A DNA stretch of 64,000 nt. It comes from Stenotrophomonas maltophilia. GTDB lineage: Bacteria > Pseudomonadota > Gammaproteobacteria > Xanthomonadales > Xanthomonadaceae. Shown piece after piece: positions 33,151 through 52,904 of this stretch. Below the pieces are notes generated by a model. The model was not told the origin of the DNA, did no database searches, and saw only the letters and a list, made by a program, of their open reading frames with translations. A program made the position numbers and the translations under genes. Position 1 is the stretch's first letter, and every line of letters begins with the position of its first letter. The stretch lies in NCBI RefSeq assembly GCF_039555535.1, contig NZ_CP154630.1, forward strand, positions 2,059,001-2,123,000, read 5' to 3'.

Positions 33151-33583
33151 GGGCGGTGTTCCGGTGAAAGTTGATGTTGTACCGAACTGGGGACGCAGGG
33201 GATGTCGACAAGGCGTCGCCGCTGCAACACGGCATCCTGCGACTGATCGTCGCGACATGTGTTGATTACCGCATCTTGTGTTGACGGCTCGGGATATCCC
33301 CACTATGTTGTGGCCGTCACTCCCGGTCAGCCGCCGCCGCCGGACATGCAGCAAACGTCCCGCGGCCCGCCCCTGAAGGCTTGCCGTGTCGACGCGGCCG
33401 CTATCGCGCGGACCCAGATCGCCCCCACGGCCCGGATACCGGCCGCAGGCGCAGGCCATTGCCGACGACCTGGTGTTCCCGCGCTATGGCATCCCACCCC
33501 GACCGCCCCGTGCGCCGGTATCGCGTGCAGGGCCGCCACGGCATCGACCGCCAACGCGCGTGCGAGCCTGGAGTTCCACCACC
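33151..33583. other. Gap between the oxidoreductase and nrdA, with a long nrdA leader
   Basis: About 430 bases without a convincing gene. Two candidate NrdR boxes lie at 33266-33313. From there to the nrdA start is a GC-rich leader of about 270 bases whose in-frame extension gives a low-complexity Pro/Arg sequence unlike any RNR N-terminus. No known riboswitch was recognised. Confidence 0.55.
33266..33313. promoter_or_regulatory. Two candidate NrdR boxes upstream of nrdA
   Basis: Box 1 is TTACCGCATCTTGTGT at 33266-33281; box 2 is CCCCACTATGTTGTGG at 33298-33313. Against the consensus ACACTATATCTTGTGT they match at 11 and 10 of 16 positions, with right halves best conserved. They are 32 bases apart start to start, the three-turn spacing known for NrdR box pairs. 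NrdR represses RNR genes when deoxynucleotides are plentiful. Confidence 0.6.
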
Positions 33584-35962
33584 ATGACCGACAGTACCTT
33601 CCGCGTGGCCGATCTGGCCGGCGCTGGCGACGCCTTGCGCGCCGGTGGCGAGCGTGTGCCGACCTGGATCACCAAGGAGGCCGGCAACCGCCGCCTGCCG
33701 TTCGACGCCGAGCGCCTGCAACGCAGCATCGATACCGTGCACGCCGAGTTCCCGCAGCTGGATGTGAGCGACTACCGCCGCGTGGTGCAGGCGATGGTCG
33801 AGCGCAAGCCCAGCCTCAGTGCTGATGACCTGGTCGACCTGCTGATCCGCGAGGCCGAGTCGCGCGTGGACCTGGTCGCGCCGGAGTGGGAACAGTTTGC
33901 CGCGCGCATCTACCTGCGGCGGCTGTACAAGCGCGCCAGCCGCAACCGCTTCTACGATGTCAGCCTGAAGTACGGCTCCTACGTGGGCCTGCAGGAGAGC
34001 CTGGCTGACCGCGGCATCTACAGCAACGACATCCTGCGCTGCTATTCCAAGGAAGAACTGCAGCAGGCCGGCGAGATGATCGACCCGGAGCGCGACCGCC
34101 TGTTCGCCTACAACGGCCTGTACCTGCTGGCCACGCGCTACCTGGCCAGCGATCGCAGCCGTGAGGTCTACGAACTGCCGCAGGAGCGCTGGCTGACCAT
34201 TGCGCTGTACCTGATGCAGGAAGAGGGCGGGGCTGGTGAGAGCGGCCGCGTACGCCGCATGCAGCTGGTCGGCGAGGCGTACTGGGCGCTGTCCAACCTG
34301 TACATGACGGTGGCCACGCCGACCCTGGCCAACGCCGGCAAGGTGGGCGGCCAGCTGTCCAGCTGCTTCATCGACACGGTGGATGACAGCCTGCAGGGCA
34401 TCTATGACTCCAATACCGATATCGCCCGTGTTTCGAAGCATGGCGGCGGAGTGGGTGCGTACCTCGGCTACGTGCGCAGCAGCGGTGCGCCGATCCGTGG
34501 CGTGCCCAATTCGTCCGGGGGCGTGGTGCCGTGGATCAAGCAGCTCAACAACACCGCCGTATCGGTGGACCAGCTCGGCCAGCGCAAGGGCGCGGTGGCG
34601 GTGTACCTGGATATCTGGCACCGCGATATCGAAGCCTTCCTCGATCTGCGCCTGAACAATGGCGACCAGCGCCTGCGTGCGCACGATGTGTTCACCTCGG
34701 TGTGCGTGCCGGACCTGCTCATGGAGGCGGTCGAGCGCCGTGCCGACTGGTACCTGTTCGATCCGCACGAAGTGAAGAGCGCCAAGGGCTGGTACCTGCA
34801 GGACTTCTACGATGAGAAGCGCGGATCGGGCAGCTTCCGTGACCGCTATGCGGAACTGGTGGCCGACGAGCGCATCAGCCGCCGCACGGTGAAGGCGATC
34901 GACCTGTTCAAGCGGATCATGCTCAGCCAGCTGGAGACCGGCAACCCGTTCCTGTTCTACCGCGACGAGGTCAATCGCAGGAATCCGAACAAGCACGCGG
35001 GCATGATCTATTCCAGCAACCTGTGCACCGAGATCCTGCAGAACATGAGCCCGACGCGGATGATCCAGGAGATCGTCAGCGGCGATCAGATCGTCACCAC
35101 CCGGCGTGCCGGTGACTTCGTGGTCTGCAACCTGTCCTCGATCAATCTCGGTCGTGCGATCAGTGCGCCGGATGACCTGCTGGCCTCCGATGTGCTGGAG
35201 CGGCTGATCCCGATCCAGGTGCGCATGCTCGACAACGTGATCGACCTCAACGCGCTGCCGGTGCCGCAGGCCACGATCACCAACCGCAAGTACCGCGCCA
35301 TCGGCCTGGGCACGTTCGGCTGGCACCACCTGCTGGCGCAGCAGGCGATCCAGTGGGAATCGCCGGACGCCGAGGCGTTGGCCGACCGCCTGTACGAGCG
35401 CATCAACTTCCTGACCATCCAGGCCAGCGCACAGCTGGCCAAAGAAAAGGGCAGCTACCCGATGTTCGCCGGCAGCGACTGGCACAACGGCCGCTATTTC
35501 CGTGACCGCGACTATAGCGGTGCCGCCTGGGACGGCCTCGCCCGCGAGGTGGCTACACACGGCCTGCGCAATGGCTGGCTGCTGGCGGTGGCGCCGAACA
35601 TGAGCACCGCGCAGATTGCGGGTTCCACGGCTTCGATCGACCCGATCTACAGCGCGTTCTACTACGAGGAAAAGAAGGACTTCCGGCGGCCGGTGGCCGC
35701 ACCGGGCCTGTCGCTGGAAACCTGGCCGTACTACGAGAAGGGCGCCTACAAGGTCGACCAGTTCGCCAGCGTGCGCCAGAACGCGCGCCGCCAGCGCCAT
35801 GTCGACCAGTCGATCAGCTTCAACCTGTACGTGCCCAGCACCATTCGCGCCAGCACGTTGTTGGAGCTGCATCTGACGGCATGGCGTGAGGGTCTGAAGA
35901 CCACCTACTACGTGCGCTCCAACGACATCGACATCAGCGAATGCGAGTGGTGCGCCAGCTGA
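33584..35962 (+). CDS. nrdA: Class I ribonucleotide reductase, catalytic (alpha) subunit
   Basis: A 792-residue R1 subunit reducing ribonucleoside diphosphates. An N-terminal ATP-cone-like regulatory domain is present (ITKEAGNRRLPFDAERLQRS). The active site is complete: GGQLSSCFIDTVDD holds the first redox cysteine, SNLCTEI the thiyl-radical cysteine with its Asn and Glu, and VVCNLSSINLG the second redox cysteine. MSTAQIAGSTASIDPIYSAF matches the phosphate-binding loop. The C-terminus ends CEWCAS (Cys787, Cys790), the swinging dithiol that takes electrons from thioredoxin-like proteins. ATG at 33584 has GGAG upstream. nrdB follows after 109 bases containing a repeat element; flavodoxin and thioredoxin genes come next. 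Confidence 0.95.
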   Translation: MTDSTFRVADLAGAGDALRAGGERVPTWITKEAGNRRLPFDAERLQRSIDTVHAEFPQLDVSDYRRVVQAMVERKPSLSADDLVDLLIREAESRVDLVAPEWEQFAARIYLRRLYKRASRNRFYDVSLKYGSYVGLQESLADRGIYSNDILRCYSKEELQQAGEMIDPERDRLFAYNGLYLLATRYLASDRSREVYELPQERWLTIALYLMQEEGGAGESGRVRRMQLVGEAYWALSNLYMTVATPTLANAGKVGGQLSSCFIDTVDDSLQGIYDSNTDIARVSKHGGGVGAYLGYVRSSGAPIRGVPNSSGGVVPWIKQLNNTAVSVDQLGQRKGAVAVYLDIWHRDIEAFLDLRLNNGDQRLRAHDVFTSVCVPDLLMEAVERRADWYLFDPHEVKSAKGWYLQDFYDEKRGSGSFRDRYAELVADERISRRTVKAIDLFKRIMLSQLETGNPFLFYRDEVNRRNPNKHAGMIYSSNLCTEILQNMSPTRMIQEIVSGDQIVTTRRAGDFVVCNLSSINLGRAISAPDDLLASDVLERLIPIQVRMLDNVIDLNALPVPQATITNRKYRAIGLGTFGWHHLLAQQAIQWESPDAEALADRLYERINFLTIQASAQLAKEKGSYPMFAGSDWHNGRYFRDRDYSGAAWDGLAREVATHGLRNGWLLAVAPNMSTAQIAGSTASIDPIYSAFYYEEKKDFRRPVAAPGLSLETWPYYEKGAYKVDQFASVRQNARRQRHVDQSISFNLYVPSTIRASTLLELHLTAWREGLKTTYYVRSNDIDISECEWCAS

Positions 35963-35975
35963 TCGCGGCCGCCCT

Positions 35976-36037
35976 GTAGAGCCGAGCCCACGCTCGGCTC
36001 AGACGCGAAGAGCAGCCGAGGATGGGCTCGGCTCTAC
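35976..36037. repeat. SMAG/REP dimer between nrdA and nrdB
   Basis: GTAGAGCCGAGCCCACGCTC starts at 35976 and the inverted copy ends in CTCTAC at 36037. Unlike most copies here it lies inside an operon, 14 bases after the nrdA stop, where a hairpin could set the ratio of the two subunits or protect the nrdA mRNA. Confidence 0.85.
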
Positions 36038-36071
36038 ATCCGCAATGCACGTAATGCGAAGGCAAACGACC

Positions 36072-37112
36072 ATGGCAACCCCGCTCGACCGCATCAAGAT
36101 CCTCGAACCGCGCCACCCGAACCGCAGCACCGGCATCATCAATGGCCGCACCAGCGGCATCCTGAACTGGAACGACATTCCGTACCCCTCGTTCTATCGG
36201 GCCTACAAGGAGTTGTCGACCAACTTCTGGATTCCCGACGAGGTGGACATGAAGCTGGATGCGCGCCAGTACGGCGAGCTGTCCGGGCGCGAGAAGAACG
36301 CTTACGACTCGATCATCGGCCTGCTGGCCACGCTGGATTCGCCACAGACGCGCTTCATCTACAACGTGGCCGAGTACATCACCGACCCGGCGGCGCATGC
36401 CAACGCGGCGATCATCGGCCAGCAGGAGGTGATCCACAACGAGAGCTACAGCTACGTGCTGGCCTCGATCACCGACCTGCCGAACCAGAACCGCATCTTC
36501 GAGATCGCCCGCACGCACCCGACCATCATCAAGCGCAACGCGCCGATCATGGGGGCGTATGACGATTTCATGCGCGAAAAGACCGCCGAGACCCTGCTGA
36601 AGTCGCTGATCCAGTCGTCGATCCTGGAGGGCATCAACTTCTATTCCGGGTTTGCCTACTTCTACAACATGGTGCGGCAGAACCGCATGACCGGCACCGG
36701 CAAGATCATCAGCTTCATCAACCGTGACGAGCTGGCCCACACCAAGTTCATCAGCGAGCTGATCCGCGCCATCATCGGCGAGAACCCGGAGCTGCAGACC
36801 AATGAACTGACCGCGTACGTGCACCAGGCGTTCGAGCATGCGATCGAACTGGAGACGCAGTGGTCCTCGGAAGTACTGGACGGCATCGACGGCATCGATG
36901 TCGAGGAGATGACGCGCTACGTGAAGTACCGGGCCAACAAGATGGCCGGCATGCTGGGCATCGAGCGCCTGTATAGCGACACCACCGACAACGTGATGCC
37001 CTGGATCAAGGCCTACGCCGACAACTTCACCGAGACCAAGACCGACTTCTTCGAGATGCGCAATGCAAGCTACAAGAAGACCAACGTCGACAACGGGTTC
37101 GACGACCTCTGA
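36072..37112 (+). CDS. nrdB: Class I ribonucleotide reductase, radical (beta) subunit
   Basis: A 346-residue R2 subunit that stores the radical for NrdA. All metal ligands can be placed: Asp89 (ATLDSPQTR), Glu119 and His122 (QQEVIHNESYSY), Glu186 (SSILEGINFYSG), Glu220 and His223 (INRDELAHTKF). The radical tyrosine is Tyr126, seven residues after Glu119 as in E. coli. This is therefore a tyrosyl-radical enzyme, not a metal-free DOPA (class Ie) or tyrosine-less Mn/Fe (class Ic) type. The C-terminus NVDNGFDDL should dock into NrdA. ATG at 36072 has a GAAGG site. The next gene, a flavodoxin, overlaps it. Confidence 0.95.
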   Translation: MATPLDRIKILEPRHPNRSTGIINGRTSGILNWNDIPYPSFYRAYKELSTNFWIPDEVDMKLDARQYGELSGREKNAYDSIIGLLATLDSPQTRFIYNVAEYITDPAAHANAAIIGQQEVIHNESYSYVLASITDLPNQNRIFEIARTHPTIIKRNAPIMGAYDDFMREKTAETLLKSLIQSSILEGINFYSGFAYFYNMVRQNRMTGTGKIISFINRDELAHTKFISELIRAIIGENPELQTNELTAYVHQAFEHAIELETQWSSEVLDGIDGIDVEEMTRYVKYRANKMAGMLGIERLYSDTTDNVMPWIKAYADNFTETKTDFFEMRNASYKKTNVDNGFDDL

Positions 37113-37605
37113 GCCCAGCGCCGCGCTGAGCATCCTGGTGGTGGTTGCCTCGTTGAGCGGCAACACCCGCGAACTCGGCCGGCTGATTGCCAAACGCTGC
37201 CGCGCTGCCGGCCATACGGTGCACTGGCAGGAGGCCGACGACCTGCGCCAGGCACCGCCGCTGGCGGCCGATGAGGCCGACCTGGTGCTGCTGGGCTGCT
37301 GGACCGACAACGCCGGGCGTACGCCAGCGGAGATGAAGGCGTGGGTGGCCGGTATTGTCGAGCGCGGCGAGCGGCCACGGCAGCTGGCGGTGTTCGGCAC
37401 CGGCGAAACGCAGTGGGGGCAGGAATACTACTGCGGTGCCGTGCACCGGCTGATCCACTATTTCCGCAGCGACTACCCGCCGCTGGAGATCGAACAGATG
37501 CCGCATGGCGTTCGCCACGCCGAGGCCATCAGTGCCTGGACCGATGCGGTCCTGGCCCACTACTGGAGCAACACCGATGCAGATCATCGACGCCACCACG
37601 CCTGA
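37063..37605 (+). CDS. NrdI-like flavodoxin of the ribonucleotide reductase operon
   Basis: Up to 180 residues with a flavodoxin fold. The FMN phosphate loop is SILVVVASLSGNTRELGRL, and the isoalloxazine-contact region is seen in GCWTDNAGRTPAEM and GTGETQWGQEYYCGAV. The second stretch recalls the GNRNFGEAWG loop of NrdI. NrdI proteins supply an oxidant to assemble the Mn2-tyrosyl cofactor of class Ib R2; this protein is longer than typical NrdI, so the assignment is by context and fold. The ATG at 37063 overlaps nrdB by 50 bases; the fold itself starts only near residue 22, so the true start is uncertain. It overlaps the thioredoxin gene by 29 bases. Confidence 0.75.
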   Translation: MQATRRPTSTTGSTTSEPSAALSILVVVASLSGNTRELGRLIAKRCRAAGHTVHWQEADDLRQAPPLAADEADLVLLGCWTDNAGRTPAEMKAWVAGIVERGERPRQLAVFGTGETQWGQEYYCGAVHRLIHYFRSDYPPLEIEQMPHGVRHAEAISAWTDAVLAHYWSNTDADHRRHHA

Positions 37606-37903
37606 GCAGTTCCAGCAGCTGCTGGCCGAGCACCCGCGGGTGCTGGTGGATTTCCACAAGGACCAGTGCCCGGGCTGCCGGATGCTGGAAATGTCCCTGC
37701 ACCGGGTAGCCACCAGCAGTGCAGGCCAGGGTACCACCCTGCTGCGCGTGCAGCTGGAGGTGCTCGGCGAGGCGTTCTTCCGTGAGCTGGGGCTGCGGCA
37801 GACACCGACGCTATCGCTGTTCCGTGATGGTGACGAACGCACGCGACTGGCCGGGTTCCAGTCGCCGCAGCAGATCGAGGTCGCGATCGCGTTGTATCTG
37901 TGA
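37577..37903 (+). CDS. Thioredoxin-like protein, probable electron donor to the reductase
   Basis: A 108-residue thioredoxin-fold protein. The active site is VDFHKDQCPGCRMLEMSL: Cys31 and Cys34 with Pro-Gly between them, where thioredoxin 1 has Gly-Pro. The cis-proline is seen in LRQTPTLSLFRDG. It has no signal peptide and should work in the cytoplasm. As last gene of nrdA-nrdB-flavodoxin-thioredoxin it is the natural donor for the NrdA C-terminal dithiol, the role of NrdH in class Ib operons. The start at 37577 has GGAG nine bases upstream. Confidence 0.85.
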   Translation: MQIIDATTPEQFQQLLAEHPRVLVDFHKDQCPGCRMLEMSLHRVATSSAGQGTTLLRVQLEVLGEAFFRELGLRQTPTLSLFRDGDERTRLAGFQSPQQIEVAIALYL

Positions 37904-38091: not shown

Positions 38092-39423
38092 TCACCCGCC
38101 GCTGAAGGTATCCACCAGCAGCTTCACGTTCAGCACCACGATCACCAGCGCGATCACCCAGGCAATCGCACCCAGCCAGCGCGGCGCCACCAGCGCACCC
38201 ATCGTCACCTTGTCGGTCACGATCCGCACCAGCGGGATGATCGCAAACGGCAGCTGCATCGACAGCACCACCTGGCTCAGCACCAGCAGCTTCACCGCGC
38301 CCTGGTCGCCGAACAGCATGATCACCACCACCACCGGAATGATCGCCAGCGCCCGCGTGATCAGCCGCCGCAGCCACGGCGGCAGGCGCAGGTGCAGGAA
38401 GCCTTCCATCACGATCTGCCCGGCCAGCGTAGCGGTCACCGTTGAATTCAGGCCCGACGCCAGCAGCGCCACCGCGAACAACGTCGCCGCCGCGCCCACC
38501 CCCAGCATAGGCGCCAGCAGCTGGTGCGCCTGCTCGATGTCTTCCACATCGAAGCGGCCATTGGCATGGAACACCGCCGCCGCCAGGATCAGGATGCTGG
38601 CGTTGATGAACAGTGCCAGGGTCAGCGCGAGGGTGCTGTCGGTCACCGCCCAGCGCAGCGCGCTGCGACGGCCCTCATCGGTGCGCGGGTAGGCGCGGGT
38701 CTGCACGATGGACGAATGCAGGTACAGGTTATGCGGCATCACCGTGGCGCCGATGATGCCGATGGCGATGTACAGCGCGTGCGGATCGGTCACCACCTGG
38801 GCGCGCGGAATGAACCCGCCCAGCACCGCCATCACCGGTGGTGCGGCCAATGCGATCTGCACCATGAAGCAGCCGAAGATCACCATCAGCAGCGCGATTA
38901 CGAACGCTTCCAGTGCGCGGAAGCCGCGGTTCATCAACAGCAGTACCAGAAGCGTGTCCAGCGCGGTGATCACTGCGCCCCAGAGCAGGGGCAGGTCGAA
39001 CAGCAGCTTCAGCGCGATCGCAGTGCCGATCACCTCGGCCAGGTCGCAGGCGATGATGGCCGCCTCGCACAGCGCCCACAGTGCCAGGTTCACCGGCTTG
39101 GGGTAACGCGCGCGGCAGGCCTGCGCCAGGTCCATGCCGGTGGCGATGCCCAGCCGCGCCGACAGCGCCTGCAGGATCACCGCCATCAGGTTGGAAATGA
39201 GGATGACAGACAGCAGCAGGTAGCCGAAGCGCGAGCCGCCGGCCAGATCGGTGGCCCAGTTGCCCGGGTCCATGTAGCCGACCGAAATCATGTAGCCCGG
39301 GCCGAGGAAGGCCAGCAGGCGGAACCACCAGTGCCCCTTGTCGGGTACCGCCACCGAGGCATTGAGCGCGCCCAGGCTGGCCGGGGTGGGGGCCGAAGGG
39401 TCGCGGGGCGCCAGGGTGTTCAT
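38092..39423 (-). CDS. mntH: MntH, Nramp-family manganese/proton symporter
   Basis: A 443-residue inner-membrane protein with eleven predicted membrane segments. The Nramp signatures are intact: [15 protein letters not shown] in helix 1 (metal-binding Asp and Asn) and [15 protein letters not shown] in helix 6 (metal-binding Met, proton-relay His). It imports Mn2+ (less well Fe2+) with protons. ATG at 39423 was chosen; the longer frame would start inside the divergent regulatory region. The MntR-box-like palindrome lies 8-27 bases upstream, over the ribosome site and probable promoter start region. It is divergent from mntR, a common arrangement. Confidence 0.95.
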
Positions 39424-39430
39424 GGGTCCG

Positions 39431-39450
39431 AATATAGCTCCTGCTATAGT
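39431..39450. promoter_or_regulatory. Candidate MntR box at mntH/mntR
   Basis: AATATAGC-TCCT-GCTATAGT. The arms TATAGC/GCTATA with a four-base centre match the E. coli MntR box layout AACATAGCnnnnGCTATGTT. It sits just upstream of mntH and about 90 bases before mntR, so it can repress mntH and perhaps autoregulate mntR. Confidence 0.75.
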
Positions 39451-39540
39451 CATTAGCAATGTGAAACAATCGTCTTTATCGCGTTACTGGTCCAGAATTC
39501 AGTTTCAAACCCGGAGTAGACCGGAAGAACAGGCGCAGGC

Positions 39541-40011
39541 GTGGGCAAGACCGACGATTCGACATCGCTGAAAAGCACCCCCTTGATCGAGGCCGAGCGC
39601 CAGGTCGAGAGCTTCCGCCAAGTGCGCGAGGCGCACCGGATGGAGCTGGTGGAGGACTATGTCGAGCTGATCTCGGACCTGCTGGCCGACGGTGGCGAGG
39701 CCCGCCAGGTCGATATCGCCACCCGCCTGGGCGTGGCCCAGCCCACCGTGGCGAAGATGCTGCGGCGGTTGGCTCGTGATGGCTGGGTGGTGCAGCGGCC
39801 GTACCGCGGCGTGTTCCTGACCCCGGAAGGCGAGGCGCTGGCGCATGCCAGCCGCCAGCGGCACCAGACCGTGGAGCGTTTCCTGCTGGCACTGGGCGTG
39901 GACCCTGATACGGCACGGCGTGATGCGGAGGGTATCGAGCACCATGTGAGCGAGCAGACGCTGGCGCTGTTCGAGGCGTTCGTGCGCAAGGCCGAGGGTG
40001 AGGCGCCGTAA
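39541..40011 (+). CDS. mntR: MntR, manganese-responsive DtxR-family repressor
   Basis: A 156-residue regulator closely similar to E. coli MntR over its whole length: [20 protein letters not shown], then [40 protein letters not shown] (the HTH) and [20 protein letters not shown]. The last stretch carries the Glu and His metal ligands of the MntR dimerisation domain. With Mn2+ bound it represses uptake genes. The start is GTG at 39541 with only a weak ribosome site. It is divergent from mntH and followed within three bases by repeat elements. Confidence 0.95.
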
Positions 40012-40013
40012 CG

Positions 40014-40129
40014 GTAGCGCCGGGCCATGCCCGGCGGCCGTTCGCGCGATCCCGGTTTTTGTAGAGCCGAGCCATGCTCGGCTGCCGTTTGCACGGTGAT
40101 GGAATGCGTCGAGCATGGCTCGACGCTAC
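40014..40129. repeat. Cluster of three SMAG/REP units
   Basis: A single GTAGCGCCGGGCCATGCC unit at 40014 and a GAGCCGAGC-type dimer from GTAG at 40061 to CTAC at 40129. The final CTAC contains, on the minus strand, the TAG stop codon of the thioredoxin-fold gene (40128-40126), so the repeat forms the end of that gene. Confidence 0.85.
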
Positions 40130-40674
40130 AGGTCAGGCGGGCAGCGGGCCTGTACCTGCGCGCACGCCCGTTTCGCCCATTCCTTCAACACCGGCTGCAA
40201 CCCTTCGTAACGCCGCCCCTGCCAGCCGTTGGCCAGCACCTTGCCGTCGGCATCGATCAGCACCAGATTCGGCGGTGCCAGCCCAGCCAGGGCCTGCAGC
40301 GCCGGCATGCGCGCGGCGCGGCGCGGGTCCAGCACCGGCCACGGCATGTCCTGCGCGTGCATGTAGCGGCGCAGCGCGCTCTCGCTCTCATCCAGGCTGA
40401 CGTACACCACTTCGGTATCGGCGCCGGCCTCGCGCAACGCGTCGCGTACGCTGCGCAGTGTGGGTACGAAGGCATGGCACGGCGCACACCAGTCGGCGCC
40501 GAAGTACAGCGCCACCAGCTTCGGCGGCGGCGTCCACTGCATCGGCCGCAGCGAGCGCTGTTCCGGCCGCATCAGCGAGGCCGAGACCTGCGCGTGCAGG
40601 TCCGCAGCCATCGCCGGCGCGCCCAGCAGCAGGGCACAGGCCAGCAACAACGCTCGTAGTGGCTCAGAACGCAT
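40126..40674 (-). CDS. Periplasmic thioredoxin-fold protein co-transcribed with a TonB receptor
   Basis: A 182-residue protein. A signal peptide (PLRALLLACALLLGAPAMAA) sends it to the periplasm. The thioredoxin domain has YFGADWCAPCHAFVPTLR (Cys63, Cys66) and the cis-proline region APPNLVLIDADGKVL. Related to TlpA/tryparedoxin-like proteins (WCAPC is a common active site). Two more cysteines near the C-terminus (CAQVQARC) may form a disulfide. The start at 40674 lies within the last codons of the receptor gene (11-base overlap), so both are one operon, presumably under the MntR-box promoter. Its role is unknown; a receptor plug with a CxxC pair is an attractive partner. Confidence 0.85.
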   Translation of the reverse strand: MRSEPLRALLLACALLLGAPAMAADLHAQVSASLMRPEQRSLRPMQWTPPPKLVALYFGADWCAPCHAFVPTLRSVRDALREAGADTEVVYVSLDESESALRRYMHAQDMPWPVLDPRRAARMPALQALAGLAPPNLVLIDADGKVLANGWQGRRYEGLQPVLKEWAKRACAQVQARCPPDL

Positions 40675-42823
40675 AACGCCGGTTGACGTACCACGAGCGC
40701 GCGAAACGCGGCCCGTAGACATAGTCGCTGTCACGCAGCGCGCCTACCTCCAGATCCTTCTGGCGCTGATCGAACACGTTCTTGACGCCCGCGGCCACCG
40801 ACACTTCCTGCTGCGCCTGCGCGCCCAGATGGCGGTGCCAGCGCGCACCAAGATCAGTGACCAGGAACGAACGCGTACGGTGCAGCTCGCCCAGCCGGTT
40901 GTTCAGTACCGACATCGGGCCGGTATGGCGCAGCGCGACGAAGGTCTCCCACGGCTCGGCCGGCATCCAGCTGAGCTGGGCCAGGCCGGTCCAGCGCGGG
41001 GTCTTCAGGTAATCGCGGCTTTCGATGACGGTGTCGCCACCATCGCCGGTATCGTCGAAGATGCGTTGCGGTTCGCGGAAGCGCGAGCGATACCACGAAG
41101 CACCGGCGGTCAGGCGCCACTGCGGCGAGGGTTGCCAGCCCAGGTTGGTTTCCGCGCCCAGCACGTTCGAGCCGGAGGCGTTGTAGCGCAGCTGGCTCAG
41201 CTGGCCGTCATCGCCGCGCTGGATCTCGCCCAGCGCGAAGGTATCGCGGATGCGTGCATAGGACGCAGTGGCATCCCAGCTCCACACCGGATTGGCCGGG
41301 TCCGACCGCCAATCGAAGCCGAACAGGGTGGTCAACGCGCGCTCTTCCTTCAGACCATCGGTATTGCGCACGCGCACCTGTTCGCCGCCGAGCGTATCGA
41401 CGTGCACATCCTCGACGAAGATCTCCGGTGCACGGAAGCCGGTGGCAATGCCCGCCCGCCATTTCAGGTTTGGCGTGGCCTGCCAGGCCAGCGCGATGCG
41501 CGGCGAGAACACCGCGTTGTCCAACTCCGAGCTCTTGTCCACGCGTGCACCCAGCACCACGTCGACGTTGTCGCGCAGGCTCCACTCGTCCTGGATGAAG
41601 GCGCCCAGGTTGTGGAAGGTGGCATCCTCCAGCACGGCAAGACGCTGGCCGTCACCGGTGCGATTGTCGTCGCGCAGCGCCTCGTGCTTGTACTGCACGC
41701 CGAAGGCCAGCGCGTGCGCACCCAACCGCCAGTTCAACTGGCTGTCGATGTAGTGCAGCGGGTTGTGCGTGCGGCCGTACTGGCGCCACGAACGCGAGGC
41801 CGCGCTGCCGGCCACGTTGCGGTCCAGTTGCGAAGGGTCATAGCCGGGCGTGGACGGATCGGTGGCCACGTCACCCAGGCCGCCGTAGAAGCTGTCGCGA
41901 TCGATGTCGGCGAAGGCGTAGGCCAGGCGGAAATCAACGTCGGCATTGATTTGCTGGTCCCATGACACGCTGCCGTGCCGGTACTTCGTATCCAGCGACT
42001 CGGCGATGTTGGCCAGGTATTCCGGTTGATCCAGTCGGTTGCCGCCGCGGCGGGTTTCATCGGTCACCTGCAGGTCCAGGCGCAGCCGCGCGCCGGGACT
42101 GGGTGCATACCAGGCCTGCAGCCCGCCCACCTTGAGGTTCTTGCGGGTGATCTCGGTATAGCCGTCGCCGTTGTAGTCGATGCCGTTGTTCCAGTTGCGC
42201 TGGGCAATCACTGAAAGCCCGGCGTCGGCGTCCTTCGCCACCAGGTCCAGGCGCACGTCGGCATTCTTCTGCGGCGTGCCCTTCAGCACGTCCACACCGG
42301 CCTGCACATGGCCGCCGCTGCGTGCAGGCAGCGGCGGAATCAGGTTGATCACACCGGCGACCGCGCCCGGGCCGTACAGCGCCGAGCCACCGCCCTTGAC
42401 CACTTCGATGCGGTCGACGAAGCCGGCCGGAATCTGTTCCAGGCCATAGACGCTGCCCAGCGTGGACAGCAGCGGAATGCCATCGAACAGCAGCTGGTTG
42501 TAGGCGCCGGGCAGGCCCAGCAGCTGAACTTCGCTGGTGTTGCAGTTCTGGCAGTTGCTCTCCACGCGCAGGCCGTTGATCAGCTCGGCGGCACGCGAGA
42601 AGTCGGTGGCCGCGCGCAGCGCGATGTCTTCCTTGCGCAGCACTTCGGTGCGGATCGGGACATCGGAGAGCAGGCGTTCGCTGCGGGTGGCGGTGCTGAC
42701 CTTGACCTGCACGCGGTCCAGCTCGGTCGGCTTGGGTGTAGCAGCCAGCGCGGGCAGAGGCAGGGTCAGGGCGATGGCGGCGGCCAAGGGCAGCCGACGG
42801 AAGAGGGGATTGGCAACGGGCAT
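40664..42823 (-). CDS. TonB-dependent receptor under a candidate MntR box (manganese uptake?)
   Basis: A 719-residue outer-membrane receptor. Signal peptide RRLPLAAAIALTLPLPALAA, TonB-box-like ELDRVQVKVSTATR, plug with VPIRTEVLRKEDIALRAATD, ELINGLRVESNCQNCNTSEV and PAGFVDRIEVVKGGGSALYG. The barrel ends FARSWYVNRRYAF. A cysteine pair (NCQNCN) sits in the plug. By sequence alone it looks like a siderophore or heme receptor of the CirA/FepA kind. The perfect MntR-like box 74-93 bases upstream and the neighbouring mntH/mntR argue for manganese, the role proposed for the MnoT receptor of Burkholderia. AAGGA supports the start at 42823. Confidence 0.85.
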   Translation of the reverse strand: MPVANPLFRRLPLAAAIALTLPLPALAATPKPTELDRVQVKVSTATRSERLLSDVPIRTEVLRKEDIALRAATDFSRAAELINGLRVESNCQNCNTSEVQLLGLPGAYNQLLFDGIPLLSTLGSVYGLEQIPAGFVDRIEVVKGGGSALYGPGAVAGVINLIPPLPARSGGHVQAGVDVLKGTPQKNADVRLDLVAKDADAGLSVIAQRNWNNGIDYNGDGYTEITRKNLKVGGLQAWYAPSPGARLRLDLQVTDETRRGGNRLDQPEYLANIAESLDTKYRHGSVSWDQQINADVDFRLAYAFADIDRDSFYGGLGDVATDPSTPGYDPSQLDRNVAGSAASRSWRQYGRTHNPLHYIDSQLNWRLGAHALAFGVQYKHEALRDDNRTGDGQRLAVLEDATFHNLGAFIQDEWSLRDNVDVVLGARVDKSSELDNAVFSPRIALAWQATPNLKWRAGIATGFRAPEIFVEDVHVDTLGGEQVRVRNTDGLKEERALTTLFGFDWRSDPANPVWSWDATASYARIRDTFALGEIQRGDDGQLSQLRYNASGSNVLGAETNLGWQPSPQWRLTAGASWYRSRFREPQRIFDDTGDGGDTVIESRDYLKTPRWTGLAQLSWMPAEPWETFVALRHTGPMSVLNNRLGELHRTRSFLVTDLGARWHRHLGAQAQQEVSVAAGVKNVFDQRQKDLEVGALRDSDYVYGPRFARSWYVNRRYAF

Positions 42824-42896
42824 GGGGGCGTCGTCCTTGGGGGAAGAAATGCGGCGAGGGCGACCTGGCTGACGCATATGAAAGCAGTAGCTTATC

Positions 42897-42916
42897 AACA
42901 TAGCAATTGCTATATA
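42897..42916. promoter_or_regulatory. Candidate MntR box at the TonB receptor operon
   Basis: AACATAGC-AATT-GCTATATA, with a perfect 14-base core ATAGCAATTGCTAT (42900-42913). The left half is identical to the E. coli MntR box and the centre has the same four-base spacing. It shares arms and spacing with the site at 39431-39450. Confidence 0.78.
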
Positions 42917-43039
42917 ACGAAGCCGTAGCCATTCCGTGTGGGGCGGCGGTCGAGTCAGATCATGGGGGTGTTATAACATTACACAAAGCAGCGACAACCC
43001 TGCCGGTGGTCATGTCGTTCTGGGGCGCTGCAGAGGGTG

Positions 43040-43078
43040 GGGGTCAGAGCCCGTTCCTGCGGAAAGGGATCCGACCCC
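43040..43078. terminator. Imperfect hairpin beside the desT-like gene end
   Basis: GGGGTCAGAGCCCGTTCC, loop TGC, GGAAAGGGATCCGACCCC: arms pair except for a few G-T or mismatched positions. It lies 16 bases downstream of the regulator gene at 43094 and may end its transcript. Confidence 0.5.
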
Positions 43079-43093
43079 GGGCGCCGGCCTCGA

Positions 43094-43780
43094 TCAGCCG
43101 CGGCGGAAGGCGGCGGGGCTTCGGGCGCCGACGATGATCATGCGGATCATCGTGGAGATCTGTTCGACCAGTTCCGGATCCTTCTCCGGCGGCAGGTCCA
43201 TGGCGGTGGCGCCCATCGCGAACACCAGCCGGGTGATGGCCTTGGCCACCAGTTCCGGGGCGTGCAGCACCGCGCCATCCAGCGCGGCCAGGCGCACCAG
43301 GTCGTGCTGCAGTTCTTCTTCGAAATAGTGCAGCTCGCGTTCGACGGCGTGCTTGAAGTCGTCCGAGCCGACCGCGCCTTCGCGCAGCAGCACGTGCAGC
43401 AGCTTGTCGTCGGCGCGCAGCTGCTCCATGAAGGTCTCCACGGAAACGCGCACCACGCTGGTGGCGGTGGAGGTGGCGCGCTGGCGGGCCTCGCCGATGA
43501 TGGTGCGCAGCGAGCGGCCGGCCGCATCGATCAGCGCCACGGCCAGTTCGTCCATGTCGCGGAACTGCCGGTAGAAGCTGTTGGGCGCGATGCCGGCCTC
43601 ACGTGCCACTTCGCGCAGGCTGAGCGTGGACAGGCTGCGGTGCGGCCCGATCAGTTTCAGGGCGGCGGCAAGCAGATCCTCGCGGCTCACCGTACGGCGG
43701 GCCGGGCTGTTGGCATCTTCGGGCGTCGACAAGGCGGTGGCGGCGGCCATGGGGGTTCCGGTGGGGCGAGGCTGAATCAT
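43094..43780 (-). CDS. DesT/FabR-like TetR-family repressor of fatty acid desaturation
   Basis: A 228-residue TetR-family regulator. The HTH reads LSTLSLREVAREAGIAPNSF then YRQFRDMDELAVALIDAAGR, very close to FabR/DesT repressors (the GIAPNSFYRQF phrase). The ligand domain is helical and would bind acyl-CoA in those relatives, sensing the ratio of unsaturated to saturated chains. It is divergent from a ferredoxin reductase-desaturase pair, the same set as P. aeruginosa desT-desCB. ATG at 43780 was used; 43750 (MAAATAL) is equally plausible. The gap contains a double palindrome that is probably its operator. Confidence 0.85.
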   Translation of the reverse strand: MIQPRPTGTPMAAATALSTPEDANSPARRTVSREDLLAAALKLIGPHRSLSTLSLREVAREAGIAPNSFYRQFRDMDELAVALIDAAGRSLRTIIGEARQRATSTATSVVRVSVETFMEQLRADDKLLHVLLREGAVGSDDFKHAVERELHYFEEELQHDLVRLAALDGAVLHAPELVAKAITRLVFAMGATAMDLPPEKDPELVEQISTMIRMIIVGARSPAAFRRG

Positions 43781-46414: not shown

Positions 46415-46989
46415 CAGCGCACCTCGACCAGCAGTTCGGTGGGGCCTGGCTGGAAGCGGCCGCGATGGAACAGCAGCGGCGCGCCGCCGTTCTCGTGCGC
46501 CTCGATGATGCGTCCGGCCAGCAGCAGGTGATCGCCCACCGGCCACATCGCGTGGCGGGTACAGGTGAGATGGGCGACCGCACCGGCGATGCGTGGTGCG
46601 GCGTCCTCGTCATCATCCAGCAATGCCAGGCCGTCGAAGCGGTTGCGGACCTGCGGATCGGCGAAGCGCCGGGCCAGCGCTTCCTGGTCGGCTGCCAGCA
46701 CGTTGATTGCAAAGCGGGTGGCGCGCTGGAAGGTGGACAGGCTCTGTGCGTGCAACGCCAGGTTCCACAGCACCAGTGGCGGCTGCAATGACACCGGCAC
46801 GAACGAATTGATGGTCAGGCCGACCGGCTTGCCCTGTGCATCGCGCGCGCAGACGATGGCCACCCCGGTGGGGAAGTGACCGAGCAGCCGCCGCAGTGCA
46901 CGCGGCGGCATCTCGACCGACGGCACCGGCGCCGGGGCGGGGAAGACCCCCGCCCACGGCCCGGCGTACGGCAGTGTCTCGCCGCTCAT
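46414..46989 (-). CDS. Flavin reductase-like domain protein
   Basis: A 191-residue FMN-binding split-barrel protein of the flavin reductase family. Typical phrases are [40 protein letters not shown] and [20 protein letters not shown]. Such enzymes reduce FMN or FAD with NAD(P)H and often supply monooxygenases; none is coded nearby. It overlaps sodA by four bases (ATGA) and the TPR gene by one, so it is produced with superoxide dismutase. A role in reducing flavin or iron centres under oxidative stress is a guess. Confidence 0.88.
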
Positions 46990-47615
46990 GAGGCCCGGGC
47001 CTGGCGGTAGCGCCGGCCGACCTCGGCCCAGTTGATGATGTTGAAGAACGCACCGATGTAGTCGGGGCGGCGGTTCTGGTAGTGCAGGTAGTAGGCGTGT
47101 TCCCAGACATCCAGTGCGAGGATCGGGGTGTTGCCGGACAGGCCAACGGCTGCACCCATCAATGGGCTGTCCTGGTTGGCGCTGCTTTCCACCTGCAGGC
47201 GGCCATCGCGATCGCTGGTCAGCCAGGCCCAGCCGCTGCCGAAACGGGTCTGCGCGGCCTTGGTGAAGGCGTCCTTGAAGGCATCGAAACCGCCGAGGTC
47301 GCGGTCGATGGCCGCTGCCAGTTCATCGTCGGGTGCGCCACCGCTGGCGCTGAGCACGGTCCAGAACAGGCTGTGGTTGGCGTGGCCGCCGCCGTTGTTG
47401 CGGATCGCGCCGCGCTGCGCTTCGGGCACGGTATCGAGCTGGGCGATCAGTGCCTCGACCGGCTGATCGGCGAGGCCGGCCTGTTCGATGGCGGCATTGA
47501 GGTTGTTGACATAGGTCTGGTGGTGCTTGCTGTGGTGGATCTCCATCGTGCGCGCATCGAAGTGCGGCTCGAGGGCGTCGTAGGCGTAGGGGAGCGGGGG
47601 AAGCGAGTACGACAT
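46986..47615 (-). CDS. sodA: Manganese superoxide dismutase
   Basis: A 209-residue Fe/Mn-family dismutase. Metal ligands are His in [20 protein letters not shown], His in [11 protein letters not shown], and Asp and His in [20 protein letters not shown]. The residues that separate Mn from Fe enzymes are of Mn type: [20 protein letters not shown] closely matches E. coli SodA, with the glutamine in the second shell. It removes superoxide in the cytoplasm. [10 protein letters not shown] at 47615 has GGAGA upstream. It heads the operon sodA-flavin reductase-TPR. The nearest manganese uptake genes lie about 4-9 kb to the left. Confidence 0.95.
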
Positions 47616-47757
47616 CGAAGCAATCTCCGTGGGGAAGGCCAGGGGGCTGGCCGTGGGGAGATCGTTATCGCACCTCAACATTGGTTGAGGTCAAGGGTCA
47701 TGGATGGAAGGCGTGCGCTCCCGGCGCTTTGACTGTTCAGCGAGGGCGCGGGCGGAT

Positions 47758-51707: not shown

Positions 51708-52904
51708 ATGCACGCACGTCCCGTCGTTCCCGGCTTGCCGGCGCTGGTGTTGGCTGCCCTGATCGGCACCATGGCGATGATGTCCTTCGTCGCCGTGATC
51801 GGTCCGGTGGTCCGCATGCTTGGCCTGTCCGAGTGGCATGCCGGCCTGTCGGTTACCGCCGCAGGCGTGCTGTGGATGCTGGCTGCACGCCCGTGGGGGC
51901 AGCTCAGCGACCGCATCGGCCGCAAACGGGTGTTGATGCTGGCGATGAGTGCCTACACCGTGGTCTACATCGCACTGGCCGTGTTCATCGACGTTGCCCT
52001 GCAGGCGGTGCCGCCGGTGCTGGTATCGGTACTGGTGCTGGTGGGCGCGCGCGGCCTGATCGGCCTGTTCTACGCTGCGGTGCCGCCCACCGCTGCGGCG
52101 CTGATCGCCGACAAGGCGCCAACTGGACAGCGCGCCAGCTTCCTCGCGCGGCTGGGCAGCGCAAACGCATTGGGCATGGTGCTGGGCCCGGCCGCCGCGG
52201 GCTGGCTGGCCTATACGAATCTCTCACTGGCGCTGTATGTGGCTGCACTGCTGCCATTGGTGGCGTTGGCGCTGCTGGCCTGGCGACTGCCGGCGACGCC
52301 CCCGGTGGCGGCTGGCAACGCACAGCGTCGCACGCCGATGAGCCGCCTCGACCGGCGCCTGCGCCTGCCGCAGCTGGCCGCCTTCATCGCGATGGTCTCG
52401 GTGACCATCGCGCAGGTCACGGTGGGCTTCTTCGCGATCGATCGCCTGGGCCTCGATGCGGCGGCCGGCGCACGCATGGCGGGCATTGCACTCACAGCGG
52501 TCGGGGTCGGCCTGATCCTGGCGCAGGCGCTGGTGATGAAGCTGGACGTGCGTCCGCGCCGCTGGATCGTTCTCGGTGCACTGATTTCCGGCATCGGTTT
52601 CGCATCGGTGGCAGGCGTTCAGCAGGCCTGGCAGTTGCCAGCGGCGTATGCGCTGGCGGCATTTGGCATGGGTTTCGTGTTCCCCTCGTTCCAGGCACTG
52701 GCCGCTGACGCGGTGGAAGCGCACGAGCAGGGGGCTGCCGCTGGCACCGTCGCTGCTGCGCAGGGACTGGGCATGGTGGCCGGGCCGATGCTCGGCACGC
52801 TGTTGTATCGCGGCGGGCCGAGCCTGCCTTACCTGCTGGTCGGCGCACTGCTGCTGTTGCTGTGCGCGCTGGCCGCAGCGCATCGGATGAAGGAGACCCC
52901 ATGA
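51708..52904 (+). CDS. MFS transporter, probable catecholate siderophore exporter
   Basis: A 398-residue major facilitator with twelve membrane segments. The MFS signature between helices 2 and 3 is GQLSDRIGRKRVLMLA, with a matching RLDRR loop at the centre. It is the first gene of the operon and overlaps entC by four bases (ATGA), so export of the siderophore is the likely job, as with EntS in E. coli, although the sequences are not obviously close. ATG at 51708 is preferred over an upstream in-frame start. Drug efflux remains an alternative. Confidence 0.82.
   Translation: MHARPVVPGLPALVLAALIGTMAMMSFVAVIGPVVRMLGLSEWHAGLSVTAAGVLWMLAARPWGQLSDRIGRKRVLMLAMSAYTVVYIALAVFIDVALQAVPPVLVSVLVLVGARGLIGLFYAAVPPTAAALIADKAPTGQRASFLARLGSANALGMVLGPAAAGWLAYTNLSLALYVAALLPLVALALLAWRLPATPPVAAGNAQRRTPMSRLDRRLRLPQLAAFIAMVSVTIAQVTVGFFAIDRLGLDAAAGARMAGIALTAVGVGLILAQALVMKLDVRPRRWIVLGALISGIGFASVAGVQQAWQLPAAYALAAFGMGFVFPSFQALAADAVEAHEQGAAAGTVAAAQGLGMVAGPMLGTLLYRGGPSLPYLLVGALLLLLCALAAAHRMKETP

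Follow-up and report, generated by a model that had tools for sequence, protein, structure and literature searches.

A predicted Zur operator beside the MntR box of a CQNC-type TonB-dependent receptor gene in Stenotrophomonas maltophilia

In a 64,000-nt stretch of Stenotrophomonas maltophilia (contig NZ_CP154630.1, positions 2,059,001 to 2,123,000; hereafter the window), the manganese genes mntH and mntR lie beside a gene pair encoding a TonB-dependent receptor (TBDR) with a CQNC motif in its plug and a periplasmic thioredoxin-fold protein (pTFP). What is new here is a conserved predicted Zur operator in the promoter of the TBDR-pTFP pair, proposed from sequence comparison; the MntR side of the control was already known. 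The locus is probably a metal-starvation module, in which a receptor scavenging Mn and Zn is controlled by MntR and, as predicted, by Zur. Only a handful of bacterial systems are known for bringing Mn across the outer membrane.

The predicted Zur operator, TGTAATGTTATAACA, is a 7-1-7 inverted repeat at 42969-42983 (minus strand), 52 bp upstream of the MntR box, and was recognized by conservation, core match and a position weight matrix (PWM). A total of 91 genomes of the genus were searched, of which 33 had the receptor gene, and 30 receptor loci were used for the promoter alignment. The block was exact in 28 of these 30 promoters and one base off in the remaining two, and its flanks diverged. 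The distance between the MntR box and the Zur-type block varied from 48 to 59 bp across the same promoters, and the two therefore look like separate sites. The block differs at 2 positions from TGTTATANTATAACA, which forms the core of the published Zur box of proteobacteria, GAAATGTTATA-N-TATAACATTTC (PMC4219657, available text). The PWM was built from the sites of zigA (28 of 30 loci), ZnuD2 (27 loci), ZnuD1, zrgA and Luteimonas zigA, with zero receptor promoters; two loci, L126 and L148, both incomplete, had no zigA site, and no ZnuD2 sites were taken from L178-L180, where the match begins at the locus edge. The site at 42969-42983 scored 20.4, the top of the window (next non-overlapping site, 7.2), and was still first when each family was dropped in turn (17.5-21.8). 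One ZnuD2 promoter read ...GTTATAACATTACAC..., nearly identical to the sequence of the receptor promoter itself. Two further conserved stretches were seen in the Stenotrophomonas promoters: one at 42860-42895, downstream of the MntR box and ahead of the receptor start (near TGCTTTCATRTGC..CAGCCAGGTCGCC), and one upstream of the Zur-type site, ATGACMWCCGGCA.

Genome-wide (4.83 Mb), the Zur core was found at 8 places with at most 3 mismatches, and its backwards control at 3. Five of the 8 places precede zigA/merC, ZnuD1 (two sites), ZnuD2 and zrgA, one is the TBDR promoter, and two are unexplained. The places with 2 mismatches were the one between zigA and merC, the TBDR promoter, one ZnuD1 site and C1:1915143-1915157, which precedes a small lipoprotein-like open reading frame (ORF) with a weak match to COBRA (17 bits; cut-off 27). 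Those with 3 mismatches were the second ZnuD1 site, ZnuD2, zrgA and C1:796150, the last within an ORF. A match with 3 mismatches preceding a CDF transporter gene was absent from the 7-1-7 list and was not counted. ZigA was the best match for the Luteimonas and G410 GTPases considered below (512.6 and 549.9 bits; cut-off 600, the loci being incomplete), the latter being 71% identical to the zigA copy of the genome itself, and the merC partner was identified as MerC by family search. ZnuD1 and ZnuD2 had ZnuD as their best match with 447 and 174.6 bits (cut-off 950) and are therefore called ZnuD-like only; the zrgA product matched ZrgA with 115.2 bits (cut-off 27.4). The best hits of the 20-bp E. 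coli Zur motif, each with 2 mismatches (C1:456301, 1310775, 3811195, 4264779 and 4353192), had no tie to zinc genes; the ORFs near these hits were judged by eye, save for one beside C1:4264779 (L051:3844-4590), which was family searched and matched no Pfam family.

The MntR boxes were located by pattern scans. The box of mntH, AATATAGCTCCTGCTATAGT, lies at 39431-39450, 7 bp before the mntH start, and that of the TBDR-pTFP pair, AACATAGCAATTGCTATATA, at 42897-42916, 73 bp before the TBDR start. An earlier note, made from the letters of the window alone, had pointed to both palindromes as MntR boxes, and both were recovered where it had placed them: AACATAGCN4GCTATRTW with at most 3 mismatches gave 5 strand-hits in the window against 0.16 expected, four of which are the two palindromes on both strands, and the fifth, at 51966 with 3 mismatches, is probably a chance hit. 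The core of the TBDR box had at most 1 mismatch in all 30 Stenotrophomonas promoters. The note also suggested a genome search for further boxes. AACATAGCN4GCTATGTT with at most 3 mismatches was found at 7 places in the genome (backwards control, 2), and the five places other than the two palindromes are GC-rich and look like background. A third, weaker MntR-like box with 5 mismatches, TGTATAGCGATGGCTATATC (L035 2296), precedes mntP, which lies outside the window; between this box and mntP there is a Mn riboswitch (yybP-ykoY, RF00080; L035 2139-2228) with 46.8 bits (gathering 45).

The same locus was described in S. maltophilia Sm18 by Argueta-Zepeda et al. (12 May 2026; PMC13217887) using RNA-seq, reporter fusions and an mntR deletion. 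According to the available text of that paper, MntR boxes precede mntH, the receptor gene (orf2357) and mntP, and receptor and pTFP form a two-gene locus, orf2357-orf2358, with CQNC in the plug and CAPC in the pTFP. The receptor reporter was on only if Mn and Fe were both low, and 80 nM Mn silenced it; deletion of mntR raised its activity, yet Mn still lowered it. Synteny was given for Lysobacterales, Sphingomonadales and Opitutales, and the cysteine site was already modelled structurally. Because the window matches the Sm18 locus, the prediction of the earlier note that MntR controls the TBDR-pTFP pair is correct and already known; repression of the receptor by MntR and Mn is supported by the demonstration of others in Sm18, a close relative of the strain of the window. 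MntR is not the whole control, as indicated by the published Fe requirement, the Mn effect without mntR and the conserved predicted Zur operator. The word "Zur" appears nowhere in the main text of PMC13217887, which was also the sole paper found that has "CQNC" together with "TonB". The Mn response without MntR and the deletions without phenotype form an open puzzle of the published receptor, for which the predicted Zur operator names a concrete second regulator; it also suggests a reason for the absent phenotype, namely that Zn was not varied.

The features of the CQNC TBDR-pTFP module were all present in the window: a TBDR with plug, barrel and CQNC, an adjacent CAPC pTFP, the MntR box, and mntR and mntH adjacent. 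mntH (38092-39423, minus strand) encodes an NRAMP Mn(II) importer (NCBIfam MntH, 646.5 bits, cut-off 430; Pfam Nramp, 433.6 bits), and mntR (39541-40011, plus strand), separated from it by 117 bp, an E. coli-type Mn repressor (NCBIfam MntR equivalog, 248.8 bits, cut-off 153). The TBDR gene (40664-42823, minus strand) matched the Pfam plug with 68.1 bits and the barrel with 116.7 bits, the codons of its plug motif CQNC lying at 42542-42553 (minus strand, from the translation); its closest named relatives were from Stenotrophomonas, with up to 98% identity. Its stop is overlapped by the pTFP gene (40126-40674, minus strand; 40674 vs. 40664). The extra thioredoxin-fold partner that the note had seen next to the receptor is real, with 51.3 bits to Pfam Thioredoxin_8 (cut-off 27) and a CAPC motif at 40477-40488 (minus strand, from the translation).

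The receptor was present in at least 13 of 398 genomes in an order-wide search, 8 of them Stenotrophomonas; this is a lower bound because only two candidates were scored per genome. A contig scan with two peptide patterns gave at least 47 receptor loci, again a lower bound, since one pattern contained CQNC. Both cysteines were unchanged across 43 aligned relatives (L085, L096 and L103 omitted), a conservation partly built in by the same pattern. After three weak Bacteroidota hits (L104-L106) had been dropped, sites and neighbors were tallied in 44 loci. Both the MntR box and the Zur-type site were present in all 16 Stenotrophomonas loci. In the 12 loci from other Lysobacteraceae, eight (Xanthomonas and Luteimonas) had the MntR box, one of which (L092) also had a weak 3-mismatch match to the Zur core, and the remaining four (Luteimonas and Coralloluteibacterium) had a Zur-like site, weakest in L079 (3 mismatches). 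Neither site was found at the thresholds used in the 16 more distant loci. mntR adjoined the receptor in 16/16 Stenotrophomonas, 5/12 other Lysobacteraceae and 11/16 loci outside Lysobacteraceae. A different MntR-like box, [TG]TAGCN4GCTA[AC], was found in 5 of 11 alphaproteobacterial and verrucomicrobial mntR-adjacent loci (0.0 expected) and was missing from the other 6; it is a lead only because the pattern was picked after the sequences were seen.

The receptor gene of Luteimonas panaciterrae (L058/L078) and that of G410 (L059) have zigA and merC as neighbors, and the site there fits the E. coli Zur motif at 20 of 20 positions. In three Luteimonas loci with zigA behind mntR, a Zur-like site precedes zigA, weaker in the third than in the other two. 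In a 35-row tree, from which 11 near-identical Stenotrophomonas rows were omitted, the MntR-linked state was spread over several phyla (Sphingomonadaceae, Caulobacteraceae, Opitutaceae, Verrucomicrobiales and Lysobacteraceae), the Zur-only state was found within Lysobacteraceae only, and the dual state formed one clade, Stenotrophomonas. The deep Luteimonas forks were unresolved, so the tree does not set the order of gains. In Cephaloticoccus (L086 and L096), the receptor lies, with no pTFP, between divergent mntR and genes for a substrate-binding protein, an ATPase and an ABC-3 permease (two permeases in L096), and the ATPase matched a Mn/Fe ABC model best (394.8 and 383.0 bits; cut-off 393). 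The receptor of Cephaloticoccus primus (L096 5812-8105) is split over two overlapping reading frames.

We propose that mntH brings Mn(II) through the inner membrane and that the TBDR and the pTFP may form an outer-membrane/periplasm unit for a metal in short supply; Mn(II) or a chelate of Mn is the most likely cargo, and some form of Zn is probably taken up as well. Mn is the best guess for the metal because the Cephaloticoccus receptor adjoins mntR and Mn/Fe-type ABC importer genes. Mn-loaded MntR would act at the two palindromes to repress mntH and the TBDR-pTFP pair, as shown by others in Sm18, and Zur would bind the second operator, so that full expression of the pair would require shortage of both Mn and Zn. 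The plug cysteines may bind metal or serve as a redox switch, and the pTFP may keep them reduced; both ideas also appear in the available text of PMC13217887. Across the family, control of the receptor would rest with MntR, with Zur or, in Stenotrophomonas, with the two together. A more speculative extension, which we consider possible and rather doubtful, is that the CQNC receptor is a shared outer-membrane importer of Mn and Zn, taking them up as bare ions, in a metallophore common to both or in a host protein that binds metal, and that evolution has shifted it between Mn and Zn control, with an AND-type promoter in Stenotrophomonas from which MntR and Zur must both release, and with the pTFP as a dedicated reductase keeping the plug cysteines metal-competent. 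The swapping of MntR and Zur control across the family would illustrate clearly how a single uptake protein can pass from one metal regulon to another.

Several observations weigh against a Mn/Zn receptor under joint control. The site at 42969-42983 fits the full 20-bp E. coli Zur motif at 17 of 20 positions, one of its two half-sites is imperfect, and the scan with that motif (12/14 strand-hits vs. 4/2 in the control) did not set it apart from background. The genome has only two FUR-family proteins; the one located 4-6 kb from ZnuD1 had Zur as its best NCBIfam match, a weak one (125.3 bits, under the cut-off of 167). Literature searches found no Zur-binding or Zn-response test of this promoter: among the matches listed for Zur with MntR or TBDR and for Stenotrophomonas with Zur (titles and starts of abstracts, subscription journals being thinly covered), none was on this promoter. 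Control by Zur does not explain the published Fe requirement, and deletion of the receptor or the pTFP in Sm18 gave no growth phenotype in the available text (PMC13217887); the Mn uptake through the receptor that the note predicted gains no support from these deletions. The pTFP was not found in 6 of the 16 distant loci, and the Cephaloticoccus substrate-binding protein scored almost equally with the zinc model AztC (204.8 bits) and the Mn/Fe model EfaA (204.0 bits), both under the cut-off.

An alternative is that the module responds to Mn only, as published, and that the second element, instead of being a Zur operator, is for instance the extended -10 of an upstream start. The MntR link is older and wider, Mn repression of the reporter is published (PMC13217887, available text), and TGTTATAAC reads to us like an extended -10, a reading to be set beside a consensus scan of 42780-43100 that found no sigma-70 promoter. 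However, conservation of 15 bp across 30 promoters is not needed for a -10 element, and the same motif precedes zigA, the ZnuD-like and zrgA genes, as well as the receptor in loci without an MntR box. A Zur operator and a -10 element could also coexist; a repressor operator overlying a -10 element is a usual layout. We regard the Mn-only alternative as unlikely.

Less likely still is a receptor primarily for zinc, with MntR control in Stenotrophomonas being secondary. Cysteine ligands suit Zn better than Mn, and the plug has a cysteine pair; moreover, in L058/L078, L059 and L079 a Zur-like site accompanies a receptor gene that has zigA and merC as neighbors. Against this, the MntR-linked state spreads over several phyla whereas the Zur-only state is confined to Lysobacteraceae, ZnuD was not among the 23 NCBIfam families that the TBDR matched at E 0.001, and as little as 80 nM Mn silences the published reporter. 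An iron or siderophore receptor under incidental MntR control is very improbable: of the solved structures, those closest to the TBDR in sequence are siderophore/colicin I-type receptors (CirA, 59.9 bits), and published expression needs Fe limitation (PMC13217887, available text), but the best Fur box match in 42820-43093 had 10 mismatches in 19 positions (shuffle P = 0.96), every NCBIfam siderophore model scored far under its cut-off, and the neighbors across phyla are mntR, Mn/Zn ABC importers and zigA. Fur as the second input was rejected on the same Fur box result. Shuffles in this and the related site tests were first-order Markov samples, not exact dinucleotide shuffles. The Mn/Zn receptor under MntR and predicted Zur is the reading that we consider probable.

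The genes adjoining mntH (33581-37903) encode ribonucleotide reductase alpha and beta, a flavodoxin and a thioredoxin-like protein; the flavodoxin matched PRK09271 with 241.1 bits (cut-off 104) and the ribonucleotide reductase-associated flavodoxin model TIGR01754 with 153.8 bits, just under its cut-off of 163.8. A superoxide dismutase gene is located at 46986-47690, 4 kb past the TBDR promoter, its best match being a Mn-type model (297 bits; cut-off 363). Before it, at 47673-47690, there is a perfect palindrome, CCTCAACATTGGTTGAGG (0.02 expected at ≤1 mismatch). A SoxR-type box before sodA was rejected: the E. coli SoxR consensus gave no match, and the palindrome there differs from it.

Compared with known systems, the locus is closest to the Sm18 module. 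In the available text of PMC13217887, gene order, the 117 bp between mntH and mntR, the boxes before mntH, TBDR and mntP, the mntP riboswitch, CQNC and CAPC are the same as here, and box distances differ slightly (75 bp before the receptor start vs. 73 bp here, and 10 bp before mntH vs. 7 bp here). The present analysis adds the second operator, the Luteimonas loci linked to zigA/merC and the ABC operon of Cephaloticoccus. MnoT of Burkholderia thailandensis, compared by description only, is likewise a TonB-dependent receptor tied to Mn scarcity, but its partner is TseM, a Mn-binding protein secreted by a type VI system (PMC8602904, available text). ZnuD-type receptors under Zur resemble the present case in combining a TBDR with a Zur-type operator, and the two ZnuD-like receptors of the genome carry the same motif; in contrast to them, the CQNC TBDR misses the ZnuD model and its promoter also has an MntR box. 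Finally, as in the SitABCD/MntABC-type Mn ABC importers with MntR, in Cephaloticoccus a member of the same receptor family opens such an operon beside mntR, whereas the Stenotrophomonas locus has mntH instead of an ABC importer.

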